Assembly: GCF_003290185.1 (NCBI RefSeq)
Contig: NZ_QNFY01000011.1
Span: 1 to 64,000, forward strand
Length of the DNA: 64,000 nt
Source: Chryseobacterium lathyri
GTDB lineage: Bacteria > Bacteroidota > Bacteroidia > Flavobacteriales > Weeksellaceae
Direction: 5' to 3'
This document shows, piece by piece, positions 4,537-53,840 of this stretch. How positions within the stretch are numbered: the stretch's first letter is position 1; each line of letters opens with the position of its first letter. Below the pieces are notes generated by a model, which saw only the letters and a list, made by a program, of their open reading frames with translations, was not told the DNA's origin and did no database searches. Both the position numbers and the translations under genes were made by a program.

Positions 4537-6087
4537 TTACGATATTCCTTCCAGAGCTTTGATGAATGCAGAAGGGTGTATTCCTGTTATTTTTTTGAAT
4601 TCAAGAGAGAATGCACTGTGAGAGGAGTATCCTGTGATTTCTGCAAGATGATTGATCTTGTATTTACGGTATTGAGGATCATTTTTTAACTTGTCAACAA
4701 TATAATTGATCCTCAGATGATTGATGTATTGATTGAAATTGAAATTTTTGTGCTTCCTGATTACAGCAGACAGATATTTTGTATTCACATTCAGGGTATT
4801 CGATATATTATAACGTGAAATATTTTTGTTGTTAAAGCCAAAGCTCTCTTCGAAGGCCTTTAAGCCTGCTAAAATATGTTCCTCTGCTTCAGGTGAAATT
4901 TTTATATCAGCCGGAATGCTGTTTCCCGATTGATCTTCAGCCTCATGAGGATCCTCTTCGTATGCAACGGGGGTAATTCCCTGCTGATAAATTTGAGTTA
5001 CAGTTTTTTTGTGTTTTTTTTGGAGGCTGATCATATTAAAAATAACTGTTCCCAAAACGAGAAGCAGCATGATACAGGCTGCAATCAGACCCTTTGAGAG
5101 GCTGTGGCTTTTAACCAGCTGGCTGTCGAAATTCTCTTCCTTTTGGGTAAGGGTTTTATTGACGGCCATTTTCTGATTGTAGGCAATGCTGTCTTTTAAT
5201 TCAAGGTTCTCTAATTTATATTTCTGAACATTTTCAGGATCCTTCAATTTTTTGTAGGCTTCCTCAAGATTTTTTGTAATCTCTATTTTCTTTTCCGTAA
5301 AACCATATTTATTGGCAATTTTTAAAGCCTTTTGAAAATATGAAACAGCACTGTCCTGTTTATTCTGCTGTGAATATGAGAATCCGATATCATGGAGAAT
5401 ATTGGATCTCAGATAATAATTATCATTCCCAACCAGGGCAAGAGCCTTCGCGAAAAAAGACTGGGCTTCTTCAAACTTTTTAACTTCTGATAAATTATAA
5501 CCCAGGTTAGTGTATGCCGAAACCAGAAGCTCATTTCTTCTCGGAATATTTTTGATCTGCTGAAATTCCCGGACTGCATTTTTAGAATAAGATTCTTTTT
5601 TTTGATATTCATTCTGATTAAAAAGGATCAGAAAAGAATTGTAGATCATTCCTTTCAGCTCATGTCCTTCATCCGTGTTTTCGTTTTTTATTTCGGACAA
5701 CCCTTTATTTAAGCTTTCTGAAGCTTCTTTTAACAGTCCGAGTTTTGCATACTGTGTTCCCTGCATCCTGTAGGCAAGCGCCTTTCCAGGGGCATAATTG
5801 TTTTCTGTAGCGATTTTCAGTGCTTTTTCAGCAAAATCAAGACTTCCCTTGGCATCCGATCTTAGATAGCTGTTGAACGATTTCAGATAATAAGCTTTAG
5901 CAATATAATTAGGCTGATTTTTTCTCTGGGCAGAATCTATGATGGTATTCAGGACAATTTCCGAGCTGTCCGGATTTTTAGAGGTCAGTGACCGTGCGTA
6001 TTTATATTGTCTCTCAAAATCAAAGTGTTGAGAGAATAGGGAATGTGAAAATATAAGGAAGAGAAAGAATATAATTTTTTTTTTCAT
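4537..6087 (-). CDS. Membrane-anchored TPR protein with AraC-type DNA-binding domain
   Basis: 516 residues. A signal/anchor sequence is followed by several tetratricopeptide-like helical repeats (about 30-310, for example ALAYRMQGTQYAKLGLLKEA). A hydrophobic segment near 330-350 (LIAACIMLLLVLGTVIF) comes before a cytoplasmic C-terminal AraC/XylS helix-turn-helix domain (about 410-512) that ends in the typical TGIHPSAF. This is a common flavobacterial architecture in which periplasmic TPRs may sense a signal and the HTH acts at the membrane. The target is unknown. It is the first gene downstream of, and convergent with, the C1q cluster. Confidence 0.8.
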   Translation of the reverse strand: MKKKIIFFLFLIFSHSLFSQHFDFERQYKYARSLTSKNPDSSEIVLNTIIDSAQRKNQPNYIAKAYYLKSFNSYLRSDAKGSLDFAEKALKIATENNYAPGKALAYRMQGTQYAKLGLLKEASESLNKGLSEIKNENTDEGHELKGMIYNSFLILFNQNEYQKKESYSKNAVREFQQIKNIPRRNELLVSAYTNLGYNLSEVKKFEEAQSFFAKALALVGNDNYYLRSNILHDIGFSYSQQNKQDSAVSYFQKALKIANKYGFTEKKIEITKNLEEAYKKLKDPENVQKYKLENLELKDSIAYNQKMAVNKTLTQKEENFDSQLVKSHSLSKGLIAACIMLLLVLGTVIFNMISLQKKHKKTVTQIYQQGITPVAYEEDPHEAEDQSGNSIPADIKISPEAEEHILAGLKAFEESFGFNNKNISRYNISNTLNVNTKYLSAVIRKHKNFNFNQYINHLRINYIVDKLKNDPQYRKYKINHLAEITGYSSHSAFSLEFKKITGIHPSAFIKALEGIS

Positions 6088-6102
6088 CTGTTTTTGTTGT
6101 GT

Positions 6103-6714
6103 TTACTTTTTTTCGTATTTCCAGTTTCTGGATTTTCCTTCGGCTAGCCATTCCAAAGATTGTTCCATTCTTTTGTTTCTGGTTACTTCAGTTTTTGCTT
6201 CAGTGATCCAGCTGATATATTCTTTCCTGAAAGAAGGCGATTTTTTCTCAAAAACGGCCAAGGCATCTTTATTTTTATTCAAGGCATTTTGAAAATAATC
6301 AGGAATTTCCGTTTCCACTTTGGAGGGTGCTGCTTTTTTCATGGTAACCCCCATATCTGTAAGTTCCATCGCTTCTTTAATCGCCTTTTTAAGCTGAGGT
6401 TTTGAAGGCAGGTCTTCCATTTTGGTGAGCTTGCCTAAGCTGAACATTGAACTTCTTTCGGCTGTTGTTTCTATTTCCTTTAAAGTTTTCATCTCCTGGT
6501 GCAGCCAGAATCCGAGGCTGCAATACAGTTTGAAAGAAGTAATAGAGCAAAGTATTTTTCCTTTATACATGAAGGTAGGAAACTTCCATTTTATAGCTTC
6601 TTCTGCCTCAGGACAGCATTCATGAATAGTTTCCCTGAGATAATTTAAAATAGGTTTTGCAAAATCCGGAGATTTCTCAATGTACTCATCGACTTTTACA
6701 TGATAATTTTCCAT
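6103..6714 (-). CDS. YdeI/OmdA-family protein with DUF1801 domain
   Basis: 203 residues. The N-terminal half resembles DUF1801/YdhG (AIKWKFPTFMYKGKILCS). The C-terminal half matches the bacteriocin-protection OmdA/YdeI family (SFRKEYISWITEAKTEVTRNK). Homologues are small soluble proteins of uncertain function, some tied to stress or antibiotic tolerance. It lies 5 nt downstream of the serine hydrolase gene on the same strand and 15 nt upstream of the TPR/AraC gene, so these three may be co-transcribed. Confidence 0.75.
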   Translation of the reverse strand: MENYHVKVDEYIEKSPDFAKPILNYLRETIHECCPEAEEAIKWKFPTFMYKGKILCSITSFKLYCSLGFWLHQEMKTLKEIETTAERSSMFSLGKLTKMEDLPSKPQLKKAIKEAMELTDMGVTMKKAAPSKVETEIPDYFQNALNKNKDALAVFEKKSPSFRKEYISWITEAKTEVTRNKRMEQSLEWLAEGKSRNWKYEKK

Positions 6715-6719
6715 AGTTT

Positions 6720-7853
6720 TTACTGAAATAATGATACGGTTTCGTTGACAAGAAATTTTACCTGATCCGGTCTTCCCCTGTCATTTTTAGGGTTATTTCT
6801 GTAGCTTCCGGTTCTTACAATGACCATATTGTGTTCGGGAACCATAATAATATATTGTCCCTGCAGTCCCAGAAAATAATAATGTTTGATAGGATTATCA
6901 TGGTTGATCCAGAGCCCCATTCCGTAGATCTCTTCAGATTTTTCCGTAGGTGTTCTCATCTGCTCTATAAAATCCCTGTTAAGGATCTGATGATCTCCCA
7001 CCTTCCCGTCATCTAGAAACAGCTGTCCCAGCTTCGCATAATCTCTTGCATTGGAATGGATGCAGCAGTATGTTTTTTCCATCCCGTAATTATCCGTGCT
7101 CCATGAGGCATTCTGTTCCATTCCCATCGGGATCCAGAATTTTTCGGATAAATAACTTGCTAAAGTCTGATTCAGGGCTTTTTTCAAAGCAAATCCGAGG
7201 AGCTGGGTAGAGCCGCTCTGGTATTCATACCGGGTGCCGGGTTCTTCTTTAAACCTTCTCGAAAAAACTGCTTTAATCAGATCTTTGCCATAATAGGCTT
7301 TTGCATTCGGCAGAAAAGGATTATTGTAATTTTCATCCCAGTCAAGCCCTGCTTCCATTTGGGCTAAATTTTTAAGCGTGACATTGCTTCCGAATTGTTT
7401 TTCTTTAAATTCAGGATGAAAATCAGAAAGTTTTTCATCCATATTTTTAATGATACCTTCTTCCAGAGCTTTTCCTAGCAGCATGACAGTAACAGCCTTT
7501 GCCATGGAAAAAGAATTGGTCGGTGAAAGCTGATTATAGCCGTCCCAATACTGCTCATGAAGGATCTTGCCATTTTTTATGACAACAAAGGCAGCTGTTT
7601 TGGAATGTTTTAAATTTTCAATTACATTGCCCGGGAGTTCCTTATGATTGTATTCAGGGTCTTCCGCCCACAGTTCCGGCTCTTTCGTAGCGATGAAGTT
7701 TCCGGGAAAAAGTTTCCCATCGTCAATATAGGCGCTTGATTTTCCTTTAAGATACGTTTTGGAAATTCCGCTGAATAAATAATCGTATCCCAAAAGATAA
7801 ACTGCAGCTGCACCTAAGGCTGCTCCGCCTATTACATATTTTAATACCTTCAT
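6720..7853 (-). CDS. Serine hydrolase, beta-lactamase/6-aminohexanoate-dimer hydrolase fold
   Basis: 377 residues from the ATG at 7853; an upstream in-frame TTG at 7880 overlaps the promoter -7 box and is rejected. An N-terminal hydrophobic segment (YVIGGAALGAAAVYLLG) anchors or exports the protein. The SxxK catalytic motif is in NSFSMAKAV. A tyrosine motif YEYQSGS occupies the YxN position. These place it with class C beta-lactamase-like esterases and NylB-type hydrolases. The substrate is unknown; a resistance role is not implied. It is divergent from the M48 protease gene. Confidence 0.8.
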   Translation of the reverse strand: MKVLKYVIGGAALGAAAVYLLGYDYLFSGISKTYLKGKSSAYIDDGKLFPGNFIATKEPELWAEDPEYNHKELPGNVIENLKHSKTAAFVVIKNGKILHEQYWDGYNQLSPTNSFSMAKAVTVMLLGKALEEGIIKNMDEKLSDFHPEFKEKQFGSNVTLKNLAQMEAGLDWDENYNNPFLPNAKAYYGKDLIKAVFSRRFKEEPGTRYEYQSGSTQLLGFALKKALNQTLASYLSEKFWIPMGMEQNASWSTDNYGMEKTYCCIHSNARDYAKLGQLFLDDGKVGDHQILNRDFIEQMRTPTEKSEEIYGMGLWINHDNPIKHYYFLGLQGQYIIMVPEHNMVIVRTGSYRNNPKNDRGRPDQVKFLVNETVSLFQ

Positions 7854-7877
7854 ATGATCATGAGTATCAGTCTCAAA

Positions 7878-7885
7878 CAAATTTA
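7878..7885 (-). promoter_or_regulatory. -7 element for the serine hydrolase gene
   Basis: Read on the minus strand, TAAATTTG is a perfect TAnnTTTG box about 25 nt before the ATG at 7853. A good -33 element was not seen. Confidence 0.45.
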
Positions 7886-7942
7886 TAATAATTTTGATAA
7901 GAAAATGAGAAAGAAACGGTAAATAAACTATTTTTGCGATTA

Positions 7943-9280
7943 ATGATGAAAAATATGACCAGAAAACTTATTGTATTCGTGTTTTTCATTTTTTCAGTGA
8001 TGGGAGCTGCCCAGACCTATAAAATGATTGACACCGCAGACTATTTACAGAGAAAAGAATTTTTAAAAAGTTTTGCCGGAAATAACGAGGTTTTTATTAA
8101 AAAATTAAAATCGCAGTATTCTGGGAAGACAGGGACAGAACTGTCCAGGATTTACAAGGAATTCGGGACTGATTTTGAGAAACAGGTGAAAAACAAAGAT
8201 TTTATTTTCAAGTCTGAATTTGAAACTGAAATAAAAAGCCTGATCCAGCGCCTCAAAAAAAACAATCCGAATATTCCCCAGGATCTGAAAATTTTGGTGG
8301 CGAGGGACAATACTCCTAATGCTTATTGCCTTGCAGACGGTACTTTCGTGATCAATATGGGCCTCTACAACTGGCTAAACAGCGAAGATCAGATTGCTGC
8401 CGTCATCACTCATGAGCTTGGACATAAACTTGATGAACACTCACTTAAAACATTTTTAAGCATTATTGAACAGAATCAACTAGATAAAATAACGGTTCAG
8501 AGTTTAAAGGAAACAACGGAAAAACGCAGCCATAGCCAAAATCAGAAGGCCTTTGATATCCTTAAAAACCGCGCTTATAAAAAAGGGGTGGAAAGAAGAA
8601 AACAGGAAATGAAGGCCGATTCGCTGGGGTATGTGATCTTTAAGAGCAGTGATTTTAAGAAAGCTGAATTCGTCAATGTCCTTCAACGGTTGCAGGATTT
8701 CGATACGATCTCTCCCCGTGAATTAAAAGTGGAAACCTATAAAAAGCTTTTTGATCTTCCCAAGCAGGCTTTCAATGAAAAGTGGATGAAAAAAGAAGAT
8801 TTCTCACTGTATAATTATAATTTTTACAAAGAGAAGCTGGATAAAGATTCCCTGGCATCCCATCCTGAAATGTCCAGGAGAATTGAAAGACTCAAAAAAA
8901 CATTCACTGAGCTGAAAACATCTGCAGAACCGGAAAAAGCCTCTGAGACCTTTACAACCCTAAAGAAAATGGCCAGAATGGAAATCCTTCCCAATTATTT
9001 TCATTCCGAAGATTATGGACTGGGGATTTATGTAGCCATGCAGTTCCTGCAGGACGGCGAAGAGGAAAAATATTATAAAGGCTGGCTGGGCAAATGCTTT
9101 TCAAAAATATATGAAGCCCGGAAAAATTACAACCTGAACCGTTATCTGGACAGGATTGAACCTAAAAATCAAAGTGAAAGCTATCAGCAGTTCCTGAACT
9201 TTATGTGGAATCTAAGCCTTGATGACATTAAAAATATAGCAGATTTTTACCAGAGCAGCTACCAAATAAAAGAATCCTGA
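7943..9280 (+). CDS. Secreted M48-family zinc metalloprotease
   Basis: About 445 residues from the first ATG; an in-frame TTG lies nine bases further upstream inside a TATTTTTG promoter-like box and is rejected. The signal peptide ends near GAAQ. The zinc-binding HExxH is in ITHELGHKLDEHS, and the third ligand is probably the Glu of QEMKADSLGY. This is the gluzincin pattern of M48 peptidases, which degrade damaged or misfolded envelope proteins. The C-terminal ~200 residues are charged and have no recognised domain. The promoter-like box sits only a few bases before the start, so the leader is very short. A hairpin terminator includes the stop codon. Confidence 0.82.
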   Translation: MMKNMTRKLIVFVFFIFSVMGAAQTYKMIDTADYLQRKEFLKSFAGNNEVFIKKLKSQYSGKTGTELSRIYKEFGTDFEKQVKNKDFIFKSEFETEIKSLIQRLKKNNPNIPQDLKILVARDNTPNAYCLADGTFVINMGLYNWLNSEDQIAAVITHELGHKLDEHSLKTFLSIIEQNQLDKITVQSLKETTEKRSHSQNQKAFDILKNRAYKKGVERRKQEMKADSLGYVIFKSSDFKKAEFVNVLQRLQDFDTISPRELKVETYKKLFDLPKQAFNEKWMKKEDFSLYNYNFYKEKLDKDSLASHPEMSRRIERLKKTFTELKTSAEPEKASETFTTLKKMARMEILPNYFHSEDYGLGIYVAMQFLQDGEEEKYYKGWLGKCFSKIYEARKNYNLNRYLDRIEPKNQSESYQQFLNFMWNLSLDDIKNIADFYQSSYQIKES

Positions 9281-9300
9281 TGCACCATCAGGATTCCTAT
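9273..9300. terminator. Bidirectional terminator overlapping a stop codon
   Basis: AATCCTGATG (9273-9282) and CATCAGGATT (9286-9295) form a perfect 10-bp stem with a 3-nt loop. A T-rich tract follows on the plus strand, and an A-rich tract precedes it and serves the minus-strand gene ending at 9304. The stop codon of the M48 protease gene lies inside the left arm. Confidence 0.7.
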
Positions 9301-9303
9301 TTT

Positions 9304-10836
9304 TTAGTAATTCAGTTTTTCTAAGCGAATCTTATTGAATTTTTCTTTTTCGTTGTACTCCCGGAGAAGGATATAGCCTTCTTTTCCAACATACGGTGTA
9401 ACGGCATAATTGTCTTTCTCAGAAATAGGAATGATTTCCTGCTTGAACTTTCCATCTATAACCGTGTTGATGAAAAGATTCCATTTTTTCTGTTTGGTAA
9501 CTTCATCTTTCTGGTAGTCGCGGTAGAAGAAAACAACATCTTTCCCGCCGTTGAGGTACTGGGAGAAAAGATAATCGCTGTTCACCCATTTCGTTTTTTC
9601 CTTTTCAAAAACCTTGATATTTTTGATCTTGAAATCTTTATCCGTATAAATATAAACTAAATCGGTCGTTTTAGGGGCGTTATATTGGCCGGCCGGTTTG
9701 TATTTTTCAGTAAGGATCCCAACGCTTCCGTCATTCATAAAATACATATCCTTGGTCTGAAGCATATAGCCGCTTTCTACCATTCCGTTGGCATTGATTT
9801 TCGGAAGGAATGATGCAAAGTCCGGCTTGAAATTGATCTCTTTCGTGTCTACGGTAAAATCAGATTTGTTGACCATCATTCTGGCATAGCCTATAAAATC
9901 ATATTTGGCGAAATTTCTTCCCAGTAGAACAATCTTGTCGTCAAATGTTTTATCATTGTCAAGACTGCTGCCATAGCCCAGAGAGAAACTGTCGATGAGG
10001 TCGATAGTTGTATCGGAAAGCCCGGTGACAGGTTTATTGGCAGCCTCTTTTCCTGTTTTCATATCAATTACAACAAGGCTGAAAGATTTTTTATCATCAT
10101 CCACCTTTTTCATGATGCAGTACATATAGTTCTCATCTCTTTCCAGAACGGATAATGTGGAGAATACTTTTTTATTCCCGTCCGTATTGTATTTGTATCT
10201 CCAAAGCTCCTTTTTATTATCGTCGAATTTAATAATGCTGTTGCTGTTCACATATTTTCCATAGTCTTTATATTCTATGGCAAAATAACCACCTTCTTTC
10301 ACTTCTCCCACAGCCGAAACATAGTTGTAGCCCTTTTCTTTTTTCTCCTCACGGTTTTCTTTGCGTTGTGCTTTCCAGTTTTTGGGCTCGTTGATCTCTT
10401 TGAAAGTACCATCCTCTAAATAATCATAGTACACTTTTCTCTTAATAGTATTGGTTTTCGGATCTATTACCATAGAAACCGGTGTGAAGACCTCCCTGCT
10501 TTTTACCAGGGAATAATCCATCATGGAAGGTTTCAAAATGATTTGTCCCTTAAAATCAACATAACCAAGGTAAGAGCCTGCTGTAATATCTCCTTCAAAT
10601 TCTTTGTTGGCAACGGGGTTAAGGTTTTTGTCCAAAATTACATATTCGAATTTCTTAGTCTTATCGCCTGCTTTTCCGTAAGAATAAAGAGAGACGTAGC
10701 CATAAAGATTATCTTTATCATCGAACAGGGCATTCATGCCTACATGATCACCGGCTGCGAGTGTTGTAAGGTCTTGTGTCTGGGAATAGGATAAAGTCTG
10801 GAACAATCCAAAGAGCAGAAAATATATTTTTTTCAT
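9304..10836 (-). CDS. Secreted protein of unknown function (beta-propeller-like)
   Basis: 510 residues with a clear signal peptide (MKKIYFLLFGLFQTLSYSQ). The remainder is rich in beta-strand-like segments with repeated Asp/Lys turns (for example VVIDMKTGK, FVYIYTD-type patterns). This suggests a propeller or a string of beta-blades, but no catalytic motif was recognised. It resembles uncharacterised flavobacterial exported proteins. It is monocistronic, convergent with the M48 protease gene and sharing its terminator. No function is proposed. Confidence 0.6.
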   Translation of the reverse strand: MKKIYFLLFGLFQTLSYSQTQDLTTLAAGDHVGMNALFDDKDNLYGYVSLYSYGKAGDKTKKFEYVILDKNLNPVANKEFEGDITAGSYLGYVDFKGQIILKPSMMDYSLVKSREVFTPVSMVIDPKTNTIKRKVYYDYLEDGTFKEINEPKNWKAQRKENREEKKEKGYNYVSAVGEVKEGGYFAIEYKDYGKYVNSNSIIKFDDNKKELWRYKYNTDGNKKVFSTLSVLERDENYMYCIMKKVDDDKKSFSLVVIDMKTGKEAANKPVTGLSDTTIDLIDSFSLGYGSSLDNDKTFDDKIVLLGRNFAKYDFIGYARMMVNKSDFTVDTKEINFKPDFASFLPKINANGMVESGYMLQTKDMYFMNDGSVGILTEKYKPAGQYNAPKTTDLVYIYTDKDFKIKNIKVFEKEKTKWVNSDYLFSQYLNGGKDVVFFYRDYQKDEVTKQKKWNLFINTVIDGKFKQEIIPISEKDNYAVTPYVGKEGYILLREYNEKEKFNKIRLEKLNY

Positions 10837-47593: not shown

Positions 47594-50278
47594 TTAAAAA
47601 GTCACATCCAGTCCCACATAGAAGTTAGCCTTCATGATAGGGGCATACACCATTCCGCCATCAAAATAATTTCCAAAAGGATTTCTGAAATCAACAATGG
47701 CATTTTTCTGATAATATGACGTAAGGTTCTCACCTCCTAGATAAGCTCTGAGCTTTTTATTGAAATTCCTCGAGATCTGTGCATTCAGCACAGCATAAGA
47801 ATCAGAATATATTGGCAGTTGGAATTCAGCAGGGTTGCTTGATGTATTGGGAAGCCTCTGCTTTCCTACCCAATTCAGAGTGGTATCAAAACTCCAGAAT
47901 CCGCCATTATTATTTTTATTTGTTGCATAGGCAAGGTTCACAAAGCCTCTGTGCTTCGCCATGAACGGAACTTCTCTTCTGCCGTCCAGATAATCTGCCT
48001 GAACATCATAATATTTGTAAGCCAATCTTACATCAAAATTTTTGAAAGGTGTAAAATCCCACTGCGTCTGGAAAGAATTCGCAAAAGATTTTCCTTCTAA
48101 ATTATAAAAAGTAAGCTGTTGTGGAGACTGGTCAAGATCAACAAGCACCTGGTCCTGGAAATCTGTTCTGAAAAAATCAGCGACGATGGAAGATTTTCTT
48201 CCGAAAAGCTTGAATTCCTGCTGTAGACTGGCTCCGTAGTTCCATGCGATCTCAGGTCTTAAACCATAAATATCTCCACCATTCTGCAAAATCTGGATAC
48301 TTCTGTTTGATGCAAAATACTGTTGGTTTTCAGCAAAAACGTTAGCCGTCCTGAATCCTCTGCCTGCAGAAAGCCTTAAGATCGTCTGCGGCGTGAAATC
48401 ATATTTAAAATTAAGTCTCGGGGTAAACTGAGTACCCGCAAGATTATGAAAATCTGCTCTGGCTCCTGCTACCAAAGTATATTTTAATCCCGTTAATGTA
48501 TATTCTGCAAAAATCCCCGGAACGATTTCATTTCTCTTCATATCGTCTGTTAAATACGTTTCCTCATAGCCGTCATATAGAAAACTGGCTCCAGCCTTGT
48601 ACTTATGATTGGTATTTCCGATAATGCTTTCAAAAATTAAATTTGAATAATAGGTATGCTGTTTCCCGGCATAATTTCTCAATCCGAAAAAGCTGTCCTG
48701 CTGATGGTATACATACTGATTCATCCATCCCAGGCTCTGGTAAGGCTTTCCTTTGAAGACATACCCTGTTTTATTCCAGACCTGGAATCTTGAAATATCA
48801 ATACCCACACCATATGCCCCCTGTTCGTCCTGAGGCAGTTTTTTATCAAAAGCAACCTGTCCGGCTGTTCTTTCGTCTCTGATAAAATTGATCCCGAAAT
48901 GAGACCCGAATCCCGATTTTTCAAGATCATTATAATTAAGGAGATAAGCTGCATTAATCTGGGTTCCCTTGGGTCTGTCCAGGAAAGTATCATGATTCAT
49001 ATCCGTGTCTCCAAATGTTCCGTTTCCGTGCAATAAGAATGTCTGTGACCATTTCTCATTGATAGGAGAGACACTGGTGATATTGGCTTCCGCTCTTCCG
49101 TTGAAATCAGCAAATATATTCAATGACGTTTCAGGTTCCTTGGCATTTTTCAGAAGCTCAGTATTGATCTGTCCTGTGATGCTTTCATAACCATTTGTTA
49201 CCGTACTTCCGCCTTTTGTCAGCTGGATGCTTTCGATCCATCTTCCGGGAATGAAATTCAGTCCGTAAGCCGAAGCAAGACCCCTGATTTCAGGAAGAAG
49301 TTCCTTGGTTAAACTGGTATACTTTTGATCCAGGCCAAGCATTTTCAGCTGTTTTGTTCCCGTAACAGCATTACTGAAAGAAACATCTACGGTGGCATTG
49401 GTTTCAAAGCTTTCAGACAGGTTACAGCAAGCTGCTTTTAGTAATTCTTTTTTATCAATATTAAAAACAAGACCTGCCTCTTTTTTGCTCAATGCAGTTG
49501 CTGCTTTTGAACCGGTAACCGTTACGCCTTCAATGCTTTTCTCATGCTGTTCATGAGTTTCATTAAGAGTTGCACCATGTTCTTCATGATCGTCGTGTTT
49601 TGCGCCCTCTTCATAGTGAACATTTGGGTTGGCTTCTCCAAACGGAATATCTCTATCGTACAGACAACATCCGGGAAGACTTTTGTAAACAGCGTCGGAA
49701 GCTTTGTATTTTTCATTGTCATGACCGGCATCTGCAATCGCTTTTAAAACCTTATCCGGCGAGGTTTTTGAAGGATCAAAATTTAAGGTTACCGTCTGTT
49801 TTTCCGCATTCCATTCTGCGGAATCTGCACCGGCATCTTTTGCGGTTTTTTCTATTCTGGCTTTACATGAAGCACAGTTTCCTTTTACATAAAACTCATT
49901 TCCTTTTTTAGAATGATGCAGATGAGCTTCTGCAATGGAAGGCTGAAGGTCTCTTTCATAATGGCAACACCCAGGAAGACTTTTATAAGTTTCGTCAGGG
50001 GACTTGAATTTTTCATTGTCGTGACCGGCATCGGCTACTTTCTTTAAAATTTCGTCGGGAGAAACTTTGCTGTCGGTTTCCAGGGTTAGAGTCTGCAGAT
50101 CAATAGAATAAACAGCGGTTTTGGCTCCTGCTTTTTTAGCGGTAGTTTCTATTCTGGATTTGCACATCTCACAGTTTCCTTTGACTTTGAACTGGGATTT
50201 TGAAAGGTTTTGAGCGGATATAAAGTGTACAGACACGATCATTAGACCAAGAATGAACTTGGAAATATATAATTTCAT
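47594..50278 (-). CDS. TonB-dependent receptor with two N-terminal HMA domains
   Basis: 894 residues. After a signal peptide (ends SAQ, residue 23) come two heavy-metal-associated domains with GNCEMCK (C36, C39) and GNCASCK (C135, C138). Each is followed by AGHDNEK and an LPGCC motif (C104/C105 and C204/C205), so a ~100-residue unit was duplicated. A His-rich stretch (221-247) links to the plug, which begins GVTVTGSKAA and holds another CC (284-285), then the barrel. Copper or a similar soft metal is the likely cargo. It is the third gene of a minus-strand operon. Confidence 0.88.
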   Translation of the reverse strand: MKLYISKFILGLMIVSVHFISAQNLSKSQFKVKGNCEMCKSRIETTAKKAGAKTAVYSIDLQTLTLETDSKVSPDEILKKVADAGHDNEKFKSPDETYKSLPGCCHYERDLQPSIAEAHLHHSKKGNEFYVKGNCASCKARIEKTAKDAGADSAEWNAEKQTVTLNFDPSKTSPDKVLKAIADAGHDNEKYKASDAVYKSLPGCCLYDRDIPFGEANPNVHYEEGAKHDDHEEHGATLNETHEQHEKSIEGVTVTGSKAATALSKKEAGLVFNIDKKELLKAACCNLSESFETNATVDVSFSNAVTGTKQLKMLGLDQKYTSLTKELLPEIRGLASAYGLNFIPGRWIESIQLTKGGSTVTNGYESITGQINTELLKNAKEPETSLNIFADFNGRAEANITSVSPINEKWSQTFLLHGNGTFGDTDMNHDTFLDRPKGTQINAAYLLNYNDLEKSGFGSHFGINFIRDERTAGQVAFDKKLPQDEQGAYGVGIDISRFQVWNKTGYVFKGKPYQSLGWMNQYVYHQQDSFFGLRNYAGKQHTYYSNLIFESIIGNTNHKYKAGASFLYDGYEETYLTDDMKRNEIVPGIFAEYTLTGLKYTLVAGARADFHNLAGTQFTPRLNFKYDFTPQTILRLSAGRGFRTANVFAENQQYFASNRSIQILQNGGDIYGLRPEIAWNYGASLQQEFKLFGRKSSIVADFFRTDFQDQVLVDLDQSPQQLTFYNLEGKSFANSFQTQWDFTPFKNFDVRLAYKYYDVQADYLDGRREVPFMAKHRGFVNLAYATNKNNNGGFWSFDTTLNWVGKQRLPNTSSNPAEFQLPIYSDSYAVLNAQISRNFNKKLRAYLGGENLTSYYQKNAIVDFRNPFGNYFDGGMVYAPIMKANFYVGLDVTF

Positions 50279-50346: not shown

Positions 50347-50706
50347 TTAACCTATTTTAGGCGGCTGCCAGATCTCTTTTAAACGGTCTGATAAATGAGG
50401 CGGTGAATATTGGAACTGCGGATTCTTATTCGCTTTGTAATAAGACGGTTCAAAATGTAAATTCTTTGAAAACGGAGTTTCTATATAAGTATAGCACGCA
50501 ACACAGGTTGAGCAGCAGTCGTCATTACATGAAGACTTGGTTTGGCTGTCCTTACTCTCTTTTGAAGAGTGATTTTTGCAGCAGTCGCTTTTTTCAGACT
50601 TGGTTTTGCAGCAGGTATCCTGCATAGATTGCGAGTAGAAGCTGTCTTTAGGAACTAAAAAAATTCCTAGACAAAAAATAACTGTAAGAATGTGAAACAG
50701 CTTCAT
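50347..50706 (-). CDS. Small secreted Cys-rich protein
   Basis: 119 residues from the ATG at 50706; an extended in-frame start at 50745 runs into the upstream gene and is rejected. A signal peptide (MKLFHILTVIFCLGIFLVP) precedes nine cysteines within about 37 residues: CC, CC, C, CC, C and C, including DDCCSTCVAC. The C-terminus is WQPPKIG. It resembles small Cys-rich proteins found beside flavobacterial metal TonB receptors, but no domain is certain. A periplasmic or surface metal-binding or -buffering role fits the operon. Confidence 0.6.
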   Translation of the reverse strand: MKLFHILTVIFCLGIFLVPKDSFYSQSMQDTCCKTKSEKSDCCKNHSSKESKDSQTKSSCNDDCCSTCVACYTYIETPFSKNLHFEPSYYKANKNPQFQYSPPHLSDRLKEIWQPPKIG

Positions 50707-50725: not shown

Positions 50726-51364
50726 TTATGATAAAGGATCACCAACTTTTAAAGCACAGTTGTGCCATGGTTCTCCGTGTGCAGGATTAAGTTTAGGTTT
50801 TTCACCTGTTGGAGGAGCGGCTGTTACAGGTCCCGGAACATTTTGCGCTGCACTTTGAACAGGTTGTGGTGTTGGAGCTGGCGCTGGCGCCGGCTTACTG
50901 TTTAAGGGCTGTCCTACCGGGATATCACATCTGTGGCCCGGCTGTCCGTGCGGAGGATTCATTCCCGGAGCCGTTTTAACCGGCTGTGCATTATTGTTGA
51001 TTGGCACTTTGCCTGCTGACATAGAATTGGCATCTATTTTAATGGAATTATTGGGGTTTTGACCGGGTGTTGTCTGGATAGTTGTCGGATTTACATTGAG
51101 CGGTTGTCCTACGGGAATATCGCATCTGTGGCCGGGTTGCCCATGTGGAGGGTTTTTAATTCCCGGAACTACCGTGGCAGAAGCCGGATTTGGATTGGAC
51201 TGTACACCTGCCTGCTCCATCAGGGCAGTTTGAGAAGTTGAATTAACGGCAATGCTGGGCTGCTGAACACCTGCTTCTTCTTTTATATAAGTAGGCTTTT
51301 CGTCCTTTTTGCATGAAACAGCTAATATTGAAATGGCAATAATGCCCAAGAATGTATTTTTCAT
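50726..51364 (-). CDS. Pro-rich lipoprotein with repeated His/Cys motifs
   Basis: 212 residues from the ATG at 51364; the longer reading uses a TTG. A lipobox LAVSC (C18) predicts a lipoprotein. The rest is proline- and alanine-rich and disordered, with three copies of a 16-20-residue motif: NPPHGQPGHRCDIPVGQPL twice and NPAHGEPWHNCALKVGDPL at the C-terminus. Each has one Cys and two His, so up to three metal sites can form. It heads the operon, 19 nt before the Cys-rich gene. The function is inferred from context. Confidence 0.65.
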   Translation of the reverse strand: MKNTFLGIIAISILAVSCKKDEKPTYIKEEAGVQQPSIAVNSTSQTALMEQAGVQSNPNPASATVVPGIKNPPHGQPGHRCDIPVGQPLNVNPTTIQTTPGQNPNNSIKIDANSMSAGKVPINNNAQPVKTAPGMNPPHGQPGHRCDIPVGQPLNSKPAPAPAPTPQPVQSAAQNVPGPVTAAPPTGEKPKLNPAHGEPWHNCALKVGDPLS

Positions 51365-51443: not shown

Positions 51444-52130
51444 TTAATTTTTAACTAAAAGCCTAAATCCTTCACCATGAACGTTGATAATTTCCAATCC
51501 TTCGTCATCTTTTAAGAGTTTACGAAGTTTGGCAATATACACATCCATACTTCTTGCAGTAAAGTAATTTTCCTTTTTCCAGATTTTTCTCAACGCCAGA
51601 TCTCTCGGCATGAAATCGTTTCTGTGGATACAAAGAAGTTTTAACAGCTCATTTTCTTTTGGAGAAAGTTTGTATTCTTTATCACCAACTTTAAGCTGTC
51701 TCAGCATAGAGTCGAAGAAAATGTTACTGATCTTGAACTGCTCCTGCTCCTCATTTTCCAAAGTAGAGCTTCTCTGCAGGATCGCTTTGATCTTATACAA
51801 AAGAAGTTCTGTATCAAACGGCTTTGTAATATAGTCGTCCGCACCCAGTTGGTATCCTTTTAGGATATCTTCTCTCATATTTCTTGCTGTAAGGAATATG
51901 ATAGGGGTGTTTTTATCGATTTTTTTTACGTCTTCGGCTAATGAAAATCCATCTTTTTTAGGCATCATCACGTCGAAAATACAGATGTCAAATTCATTTT
52001 CTGTAAATTCTTTCAAACCCTGCTCTCCGTCTGTAGCAAGGGTTACCTCAAAGTTATTGATCGTTAAATAATCCTTCAGCACTGCTCCGAAACTCTGATC
52101 GTCTTCTACTAATAATATTCTGTTGCTCAT
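51444..52130 (-). CDS. OmpR-family response regulator
   Basis: 228 residues. The receiver domain has the acidic cluster VEDD (E9-D11), phospho-acceptor D53 in FDVMMPKKDGF, and the Lys of TKPFD. A winged-helix DNA-binding domain follows (about 128-228, LSPKENELLKLLC and SMDVYIAKLRKLL). It works with the sensor kinase 162 nt upstream, like the RprX/RprY pair of Bacteroides. Its targets may include the adjacent metal operon, but this is only positional inference. Confidence 0.9.
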   Translation of the reverse strand: MSNRILLVEDDQSFGAVLKDYLTINNFEVTLATDGEQGLKEFTENEFDICIFDVMMPKKDGFSLAEDVKKIDKNTPIIFLTARNMREDILKGYQLGADDYITKPFDTELLLYKIKAILQRSSTLENEEQEQFKISNIFFDSMLRQLKVGDKEYKLSPKENELLKLLCIHRNDFMPRDLALRKIWKKENYFTARSMDVYIAKLRKLLKDDEGLEIINVHGEGFRLLVKN

Positions 52131-52292
52131 GATTTTAATAATTAAAATTAATGATTAAAAATTAAGAATGGACCTCCTCACTCTATCTTCTATATTTGTT
52201 ATTTGGTTTCTATTTTTAATGATAAATGATCTTGATCTCATTGATTTTTATAGGATCTTCTCATTCATTACTCATTACTTATCATTGATGAT

Positions 52293-53840
52293 TTAGCTCA
52301 TCGGCAGTTTTATCGTAAACGTACTTCCTTTGTCTTTGTGAGAGTCTACAATTATCTGCCCTTTGTGCAGTTCTGCGATTTTCTTTACGTAAGAAAGCCC
52401 CAGTCCCTGTCCTTTTACATTGTGGATATTTCCAGTTTCTTCTCTGAAGAACTTTTCAAAGATTTTAGTTTTATTATGGGTCTCCATTCCCATTCCCTTA
52501 TCGGAAATTTCTATGACGTACCAGTTTCCTTCATTACTTGTTTTTACTTTAATTTCAGGGGTTTCAGGAGAATATTTGTTGGCATTGTCCAGTAAATTCA
52601 CCAGCATATTCGAGATGTGGAACTCATCTATTTTAAAAGTATAGTTCGTTGCAGTAAATTCCTGTGTCAAAGAACCGTTTCTCTGCTGCACAATGAGATT
52701 AAAAGATTCTGTCGTTCTTTTGATCAGTTCACGTACATTGGTCTCCTTTAGAAATAGCTCTACCTCATTTCTTTCAAGCTTGGACATATTCAAAACGTTT
52801 TCCACCTGCTTTTTCATCCTTAAATTTTCCTGTTTGATCAGTTCCGAATAGTATTTTACTTTATCTGGATTGGTAGCAATCTTATCATTGGCTAAAGAGT
52901 CTGTGGCTACAGAAATTGTTGCCAGTGGTGTTTTAAACTCATGGGACATATTATTGATGAAGTCTGTCTTCACTTCAGCCAGTTTTTTCTGTCTCATCAT
53001 ATAATTGATGGAGATAATATAAATCCCAAGAATAGTCAGTAATGACAGAAAAGTTCCCAGAAGCATGGGCCAGTTGTTCATCGCCAGGGAATATTCTTTT
53101 TTAGGAAATACTAAAGCCAGACTGTATAAAGTCCGGTCTTTTTTATCTGTAAAAAGGGGATAGCTATAGGTATTGCTGTCTTTTTTCTCTTTATAAACCT
53201 TATTGACAACACTGGTAAGCTTGTTGTTCTTGTCAATTACCCCGTATCCGAATTTTGCAGTGATGCCTTTTATTTTCAGTTCTTTAGCGATTACCGAATC
53301 AAGAACTTTAGTGTCTACTCTTTTATCGATGGGCAGATTGGTGCCAACCACTTTTACAAATTCTTTTATGGCATAATCCCCGTTTTCAATATCATTGTTA
53401 AGGTCTGTGGTAAGAAGCTCGCGGTTGGTTGTGTCTTTCTTTATTTTATAAGTTGCATCGTCTGTATACAAAGTTGTCAGCTTTACCGAATCACCTTTCT
53501 GAGAGATCGGAAGCTGTGTTTTTGATATGATGTTTTTAGAATAGATGATCTGACGCTGTGCGCCGGAATCTTCTACCTGCTGAATGGTTGTTAAAGAAGG
53601 CTGGTCTTTGCTGGCAAGGATATTGTTTCTTAAATTAGTATAATCCTGGTTCAGGTATTTATCAGCTTCAATTTCTTCAATATTTTTTGAAGTGTTTTCT
53701 AAAGCAGCATATACTTTATTGGAAAATTCCTGCTCAAGAGCACCATAATAACCTTTCAGCCAATAAAATTGGAGCGTAACAAATACAATCAGTGAGATTG
53801 TCATAAACACCGAAATTATTGGGATGAACTTATTATTCAT
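52293..53840 (-). CDS. Sensor histidine kinase
   Basis: 515 residues. Two transmembrane helices (about 8-28 and 258-280) enclose a periplasmic domain of ~230 residues of unknown fold. The HisKA phospho-acceptor is in MSHEFKTPLATIS. The HATPase domain shows the N box LVNLLDNANKYSP, G1 ISDKGMGM and G2 GQGLGLSYVKKI. It phosphorylates the response regulator encoded just downstream. The signal is unknown; the periplasmic sensor has no His/Cys cluster that would point to copper. Confidence 0.9.
   Translation of the reverse strand: MNNKFIPIISVFMTISLIVFVTLQFYWLKGYYGALEQEFSNKVYAALENTSKNIEEIEADKYLNQDYTNLRNNILASKDQPSLTTIQQVEDSGAQRQIIYSKNIISKTQLPISQKGDSVKLTTLYTDDATYKIKKDTTNRELLTTDLNNDIENGDYAIKEFVKVVGTNLPIDKRVDTKVLDSVIAKELKIKGITAKFGYGVIDKNNKLTSVVNKVYKEKKDSNTYSYPLFTDKKDRTLYSLALVFPKKEYSLAMNNWPMLLGTFLSLLTILGIYIISINYMMRQKKLAEVKTDFINNMSHEFKTPLATISVATDSLANDKIATNPDKVKYYSELIKQENLRMKKQVENVLNMSKLERNEVELFLKETNVRELIKRTTESFNLIVQQRNGSLTQEFTATNYTFKIDEFHISNMLVNLLDNANKYSPETPEIKVKTSNEGNWYVIEISDKGMGMETHNKTKIFEKFFREETGNIHNVKGQGLGLSYVKKIAELHKGQIIVDSHKDKGSTFTIKLPMS

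Follow-up and report, generated by a model that had tools for sequence, protein, structure and literature searches.

The gene at 47594..50278 on the minus strand (an exact open reading frame with an ATG start) of the window, that is, the whole 64,000-nucleotide stretch of Chryseobacterium lathyri DNA analysed here, encodes an HMA-HMA-TonB-dependent receptor of 894 amino acids. This receptor is probably an outer-membrane metal importer, presumably for copper, to which the periplasmic acceptor chaperone is covalently attached, a reading given a probability of about 0.6. The HMA-receptor is not restricted to one strain or genus and is one fused state of a Bacteroidota-wide module. Metal TonB receptors and HMA chaperones are each known; the interpretation is plausible, and what is new is that linked genes and recurrent fusion support it indirectly. 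They also name a candidate for the periplasmic acceptor of the metal released by a TonB transporter, and the fusion would place the hand-off in a single polypeptide.

Architecture and conservation of the receptor

The protein begins with a signal peptide called by eye, cleavage site included (residues 1-22, 50213..50278, minus strand as for all features below), in a region where the low-confidence full-length AlphaFold2 model places a helix at residues 2-17. Two HMA units follow. Unit 1 covers residues 28-111 (49946..50197) with the motifs CEMC, AGHDNEK, and LPGCC, and unit 2 residues 127-210 (49649..49900) with CASC, AGHDNEK, and LPGCC. Their alignment (about residues 28-112 and 127-211) contains 52 identities over 85 positions and scores 281, the top score in 500 shuffles being 57. 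In a Pfam scan of the 894-residue protein, PF00403 (HMA) matches two stretches at 48.4 bits for a cut-off of 24.8 and PF00593 (barrel) reaches 96.1 bits for a cut-off of 27. The tandem of CxxC-, AGHDNEK-, and LPGCC-bearing units ahead of a linker and a plug, as described in the earlier note on this DNA, is thus confirmed.

The linker between unit 2 and the receptor part spans residues 212-247 (49538..49645). It had been called His-rich and does contain His, but only His 221 is invariant in the 81 proteins aligned, the other linker His being kept in 49-84% of them. Next comes SIEGVTVTG (residues 248-256, 49511..49537), located between the HMA units and the plug, a candidate Ton box assigned by eye from its fit to the Bacteroidota pattern. 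The plug occupies about residues 262-380 (AACCNLSESFETN; 49139..49495, limits set by eye) and the TonB barrel (PF00593) residues 381-894 (47597..49138). PF07715 (Plug) reaches 16.3 bits in the window protein, below its cut-off of 23.9, and exceeds this cut-off in 8 of 10 relatives scanned, two of the ten (L176 and L178) giving no match at E 0.01.

A full-length match (residues 1-894, 79-100% identity) is present in 149/149 searched genomes of the genus, counting the host genome itself (tables counted by hand). Ten cysteines (36, 39, 104, 105, 135, 138, 204, 205, 284, and 285) and the histidines 86, 186, and 221 are invariant in the 81 proteins. A product of chance or an assembly artefact is ruled out by the 149/149 genomes together with the invariant cysteines. 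Over the same 81 proteins, column conservation averages 0.84 and 0.86 in the HMA units, 0.97 in the plug, 0.93 in the barrel, and 0.59-0.60 in the two linkers, which indicates that the HMA units are constrained whereas the linkers are drifting. A search of plasmids gave no record holding 80% of the query in one place.

The pair at residues 284-285 (49424..49429), at the start of the plug, is a further invariant Cys-Cys, absent from the earlier note. An equivalent Cys-Cys is found at the plug start of all 83 unbroken receptors examined in the family, fused or not, as AACC in 81 and SACC in two. None of the 20 sister receptors has a Cys-Cys in its first 400 residues. These sisters (L250-L269, e.g. 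G000:C5:38532-40367) all share an early CxxCNTGD motif. Of the 84 rows of the receptor tree, 96% retain His 417; column conservation over these rows is inflated at the plug motif because the rows were selected by that motif, the 83/83 count being unselected.

The four-cysteine HMA unit

Structure prediction, proposed as a check, bore out the HMA units. The AlphaFold2 model of unit 2, built from 67 unit sequences, has a mean pLDDT of 96.2, and its residues 1-64 align to CopZ (6ff2) with Z 10.5 and an rmsd of 1.0 over 63 residues, MerP (1osd) giving Z 9.6. The top two chains found by Foldseek, 6ff2 and 2qif, are the same pair as in the other structure search. Residues 65-84 of the model, which include the Cys-Cys, fall outside the aligned core in almost every one of the best 50 rows. 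Judged by this model, the HMA units are CopZ-like and carry an extra C-terminal Cys-Cys pair. The HMA fold leaves the metal unfixed, since other solved folds matching the model include MerP (Hg), ZntA and ZiaA (Zn), and GolB (Au). The full-length AlphaFold2 model, made from 40 sequences of one genus, is poor (mean pLDDT 50); its plug and barrel are unusable, and only its HMA units, at about 80-88 per block, were used.

Both the CxxC and the C-terminal CC are present in 89 of 91 HMA units, from fused and separate genes taken together; the separate HMA of Parabacteroides is devoid of the C-terminal CC. The second residue inside the CxxC is Met in 39/47 separate and 31/44 fused units; the window protein has Ser there in its unit 2. 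The CopZ/Atx1 motif is MxCxxC, with a Met ahead of the CxxC. The units resemble the CopZ/Atx1/MerP metallochaperones in their CxxC and predicted fold but display GN at the position of this Met, and they are secreted, arranged in tandem, fused to a receptor, and extended by a C-terminal Cys-Cys. The His or Tyr of their GHD/GYD motif presumably stands at the position of the loop-5 Tyr of CopZ and of His61 of cyanobacterial Atx1, and the His61Tyr mutant of the latter is among the structure matches to the unit 2 model.

In the host genome (4.86 Mb), the four-Cys HMA model, searched up to E 1, matches nothing beyond the two fused units, so these would be the only such periplasmic carrier of the genome. 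One other Pfam HMA match is found there, in what appears by eye to be a heavy-metal P-type ATPase. A tree of 60 of the 91 units (89 columns) is poorly resolved, and no claim is therefore made on which unit came first. In one relative (L178, receptor at 5917-8922), three HMA units are fused, the second and third being almost identical, which points to a recent tandem duplication.

Fused and separate HMA domains across Bacteroidota

The survey of HMA-TonB fusions in other Bacteroidota suggested by the earlier note covered 84 loci, i.e. 80 retrieved loci, the window, and three plasmid loci. This set is non-random, as it was picked from search matches, mostly the strongest receptors with one per genus. 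HMA is fused to the receptor in 27/84 loci in one to three copies. Of these 27, 12 have a single unit, 5 a single unit together with a separate HMA gene, 9 two units, and 1 three units. In 42/84 loci, a separate HMA gene adjoins the receptor gene on the same strand within 800 bp, and 36 of these 42 genes encode a hydrophobic, signal-peptide-like start according to a crude rule. The model detects no HMA in the remaining 15/84. Among these 15, the L220 neighbour is HMA-like by eye and devoid of CxxC, the gene of L225 is broken and an HMA lies about 1.4 kb from it, and the L114 receptor has N-terminal Cys-rich repeats, leaving 12 plain exceptions. The L114 receptor (6975-9854) is borne by a Persicobacter plasmid, and its Cys-rich repeat array stands where others carry HMA, possibly as a convergent metal-binding extension.

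The control consisted of 20 sister receptors, whose identity to the window protein is 23-26%, with flanks of about 4 kb per side (about 3 kb on one side of one locus), the family loci having about 6 kb where the contig allowed; adjacency was counted up to 800 bp. No HMA is fused to or near a sister receptor (0/20), compared with HMA fused or adjacent in 69/84 family loci (Fisher p 2.5e-12, for loci that are not independent). The fused domains correspond to a separate neighbouring gene in many relatives. Such a pattern is of the Rosetta stone type and suggests that a pore and a metal-receiving carrier have been united in one protein. As examples of the separate state, the receptors of Bernardetia (41%) and Parabacteroides (36%) have no HMA and include a CarboxypepD_reg-type domain; the next gene encodes a separate HMA, and a gene for a small Cys-rich protein precedes the receptor.

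How often the fusion occurred was estimated on a tree of 84 receptors from which the HMA part had been removed, built by a quick method with SH-aLRT support. Its rows come from 79 of the 84 loci and 5 of 80 Chryseobacterium proteins; L114, L225, and the loci with a variant plug motif (L220, L248, and L249) are omitted. Three changes between the fused and unfused states are needed, two of them forced by well-supported branches, and they are placed at the base of most Weeksellaceae, at L204 plus L208, and at L209. On this sequence tree, the HMA-receptor fusion appears to have arisen about three times. The unfused receptors L191, L192, and L193 belong to Weeksellaceae, the family of the window genome. 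A CarboxypepD_reg domain lies between HMA and plug in L204 and L209 above the cut-off, and in L208 only below it.

Upstream of the receptor gene, 50347..50706 (minus strand) encodes a small Cys-rich protein with a signal-peptide-like start. It matches HYC_CC_PP (NF047658) at 18.7 bits, short of the 28 bits that NCBIfam requires, and is HYC_CC_PP-like by position only. Of eight positional equivalents scanned, three pass (90.1, 34.7, and 29.9 bits), two fall short (27.3 and 21.5), and three give no match at E 0.01. A search of open papers for HYC_CC_PP gave no match. Under a loose rule (80-200 amino acids with at least four Cys and a CC, on the same strand and no more than 1.3 kb away), a small Cys-rich upstream reading frame is found in 76/84 family and 1/20 control loci; the single control one looks spurious, and some of the family ones may be so too. 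Further upstream in the apparent operon, 50726..51364 (minus strand) encodes a protein that is lipoprotein-like by eye, with repeated HGQPGHRC-type motifs and no Pfam match up to E 1. Such a repeat occurs within 2.5 kb upstream in 80/80 Chryseobacterium loci; beyond the genus, the analysis of its link with the module covered eight loci of the neighbour-cluster table. These repeats form a possible metal site. The stretch 51444-53840, upstream on the same strand, encodes a histidine kinase and a response regulator that is RprY-like (300.9 bits, where NCBIfam sets its cut-off at 370).

Copper efflux genes are absent from the recurrent neighbour clusters listed (at least 5 loci each, at most 25 clusters). 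A link with cytochrome oxidase was discarded, as COX1 (PF00115) is present in 151/158 genomes of the phylum and its co-occurrence therefore does not discriminate.

Proposed hand-off, competing readings and known systems

In the preferred reading, the receptor would import a thiophilic metal or its chelate through the barrel, and the incoming metal would pass the Cys-Cys with which the plug begins. From general receptor structure, the plug start is probably near the periplasmic mouth, which makes a relay from this early Cys-Cys to the tethered HMA plausible. The four-cysteine HMA domains would then catch the metal, hold it bound, and deliver it to clients in the periplasm or the inner membrane. 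In many relatives, the chaperone would be the product of its own gene in an apparent operon (small Cys-rich protein, receptor, and HMA protein). The two genes may have fused in an ancestor shared by most Weeksellaceae, with about two further fusions in other lineages, copy-number changes leading to one to three HMA units. That one protein unites uptake and chaperoning, as put forward from the sequence, has gained strong indirect support from HMA being adjacent in 42/84 loci, fused in 27/84, and found in none of 20 sisters; metal binding, the nature of the metal, the direction of import, and the hand-off are inferred. It is tempting, though distinctly tentative, to go further and propose a thiol relay across the outer membrane, from the plug Cys-Cys to HMA 2 and then HMA 1, with the Cys-rich/receptor/HMA module as a copper acquisition system absent from the literature searched. 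Were this relay true, the transporter would be its own metallochaperone and the metal would never be free in the periplasm.

Copper is preferred for two reasons. The top matches, by sequence as well as by fold, are copper chaperones or domains of copper ATPases, and the four-Cys HMA recurs elsewhere in heavy-metal loci: on the N-terminal side of DUF3347 in the vicinity of CusA/CzcA-type RND and P-type ATPase genes, at the C-terminus of a Parabacteroides RND periplasmic adaptor (L116:10678-12303), and as a separate gene amid RND, SCO, four-helix copper-binding, and P-type ATPase genes. An alternative leaves architecture and hand-off unchanged but takes the metal to be zinc, cadmium, mercury, nickel, or a noble metal. 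The MerP, ZntA, ZiaA, and GolB folds match as well, and Zn(II) can be bound by a CxxC together with additional cysteines and a His; yet the copper identity of the top matches and the recurrence of the domain in Cus/CzcA-type loci render this choice rather unlikely. The neighbourhoods with RND efflux and P-type ATPase genes also fit a protective role, in which the HMA units would be periplasmic buffers holding excess copper or mercury while the receptor imports something else, and the genome with three fused copies, two of them nearly identical, would fit a dosage effect. Such a buffer would hardly account for the linkage to one receptor subfamily (69/84 against 0/20 for the sisters) or for the Cys-Cys of the plug itself in 83/83 unbroken members, and presence in all 149 genus genomes searched fits housekeeping better than resistance; this explanation is held to be improbable.

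The HMA units could also sense the metal and then signal or gate, the loaded domain blocking or opening the plug or contacting a regulator, as in FecA-like transducers. In transducers, the STN signalling domain is N-terminal and periplasmic, ahead of the Ton box; the HMA units stand in such a position before the candidate Ton box, and a two-component pair lies upstream in the window. However, the Pfam scan detects no STN domain in the window protein up to E 1, by which a FecA-type STN transducer is ruled out, no anti-sigma factor is found among the five window neighbours scanned, and a separate HMA protein in 42/84 loci is easier to reconcile with a carrier than with a sensor that is tethered. 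A sensing role is accordingly considered very unlikely, and an importer with an attached chaperone is kept as the main reading.

No description of an HMA-TonB receptor fusion is found among the open-literature matches listed, subscription papers being mostly outside their scope, nor in the available parts of PMC12914433, PMC8610252, PMC13038864, PMC11213822, PMC11960050, PMC6769254, and PMC3596284. In the open-literature excerpts where "TonB-dependent receptor" and "HMA domain" are both mentioned, the two terms stand in unrelated places. A paper on a zinc regulator of Riemerella, in its available part, gives many TonB receptors by locus tag.

OprC/NosA (PMC8610252, available part) is likewise a TonB-dependent receptor of the outer membrane, and its metal site includes a cysteine of the plug. 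Its copper motifs CxxxM and HxM are found together in 0/85 receptors here, and neither is in the window protein, so that membership of OprC/NosA is ruled out; HMA, in turn, is fused or adjacent in 69/84 loci of the present family. The 85 receptors of this motif count include L120, another receptor, which is excluded from all other counts. According to the available part of PMC11213822, Bizionia has an OprC-like CxxxM-HxM receptor proposed for copper uptake as well as periplasmic CopZ-like proteins, between which that text draws no link. The CarboxypepD_reg receptors of Bacteroidota share the same barrel family, and the domain exceeds the cut-off in three of five unfused relatives scanned (L192, L113, and L115); by contrast, it is unmatched in the fused Weeksellaceae scanned (window protein, L176, and L178), and also in the unfused L191 and L198. 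CrtA of Bordetella is a TonB-dependent receptor that imports chelated copper for oxidases, its gene being followed by a PepSY_TM gene in more than 75% of loci (PMC12914433, available part). Compared by description only, the logo given for CrtA in that part has no conserved Cys or Met, whereas the plug and HMA cysteines are kept in the receptors described here.
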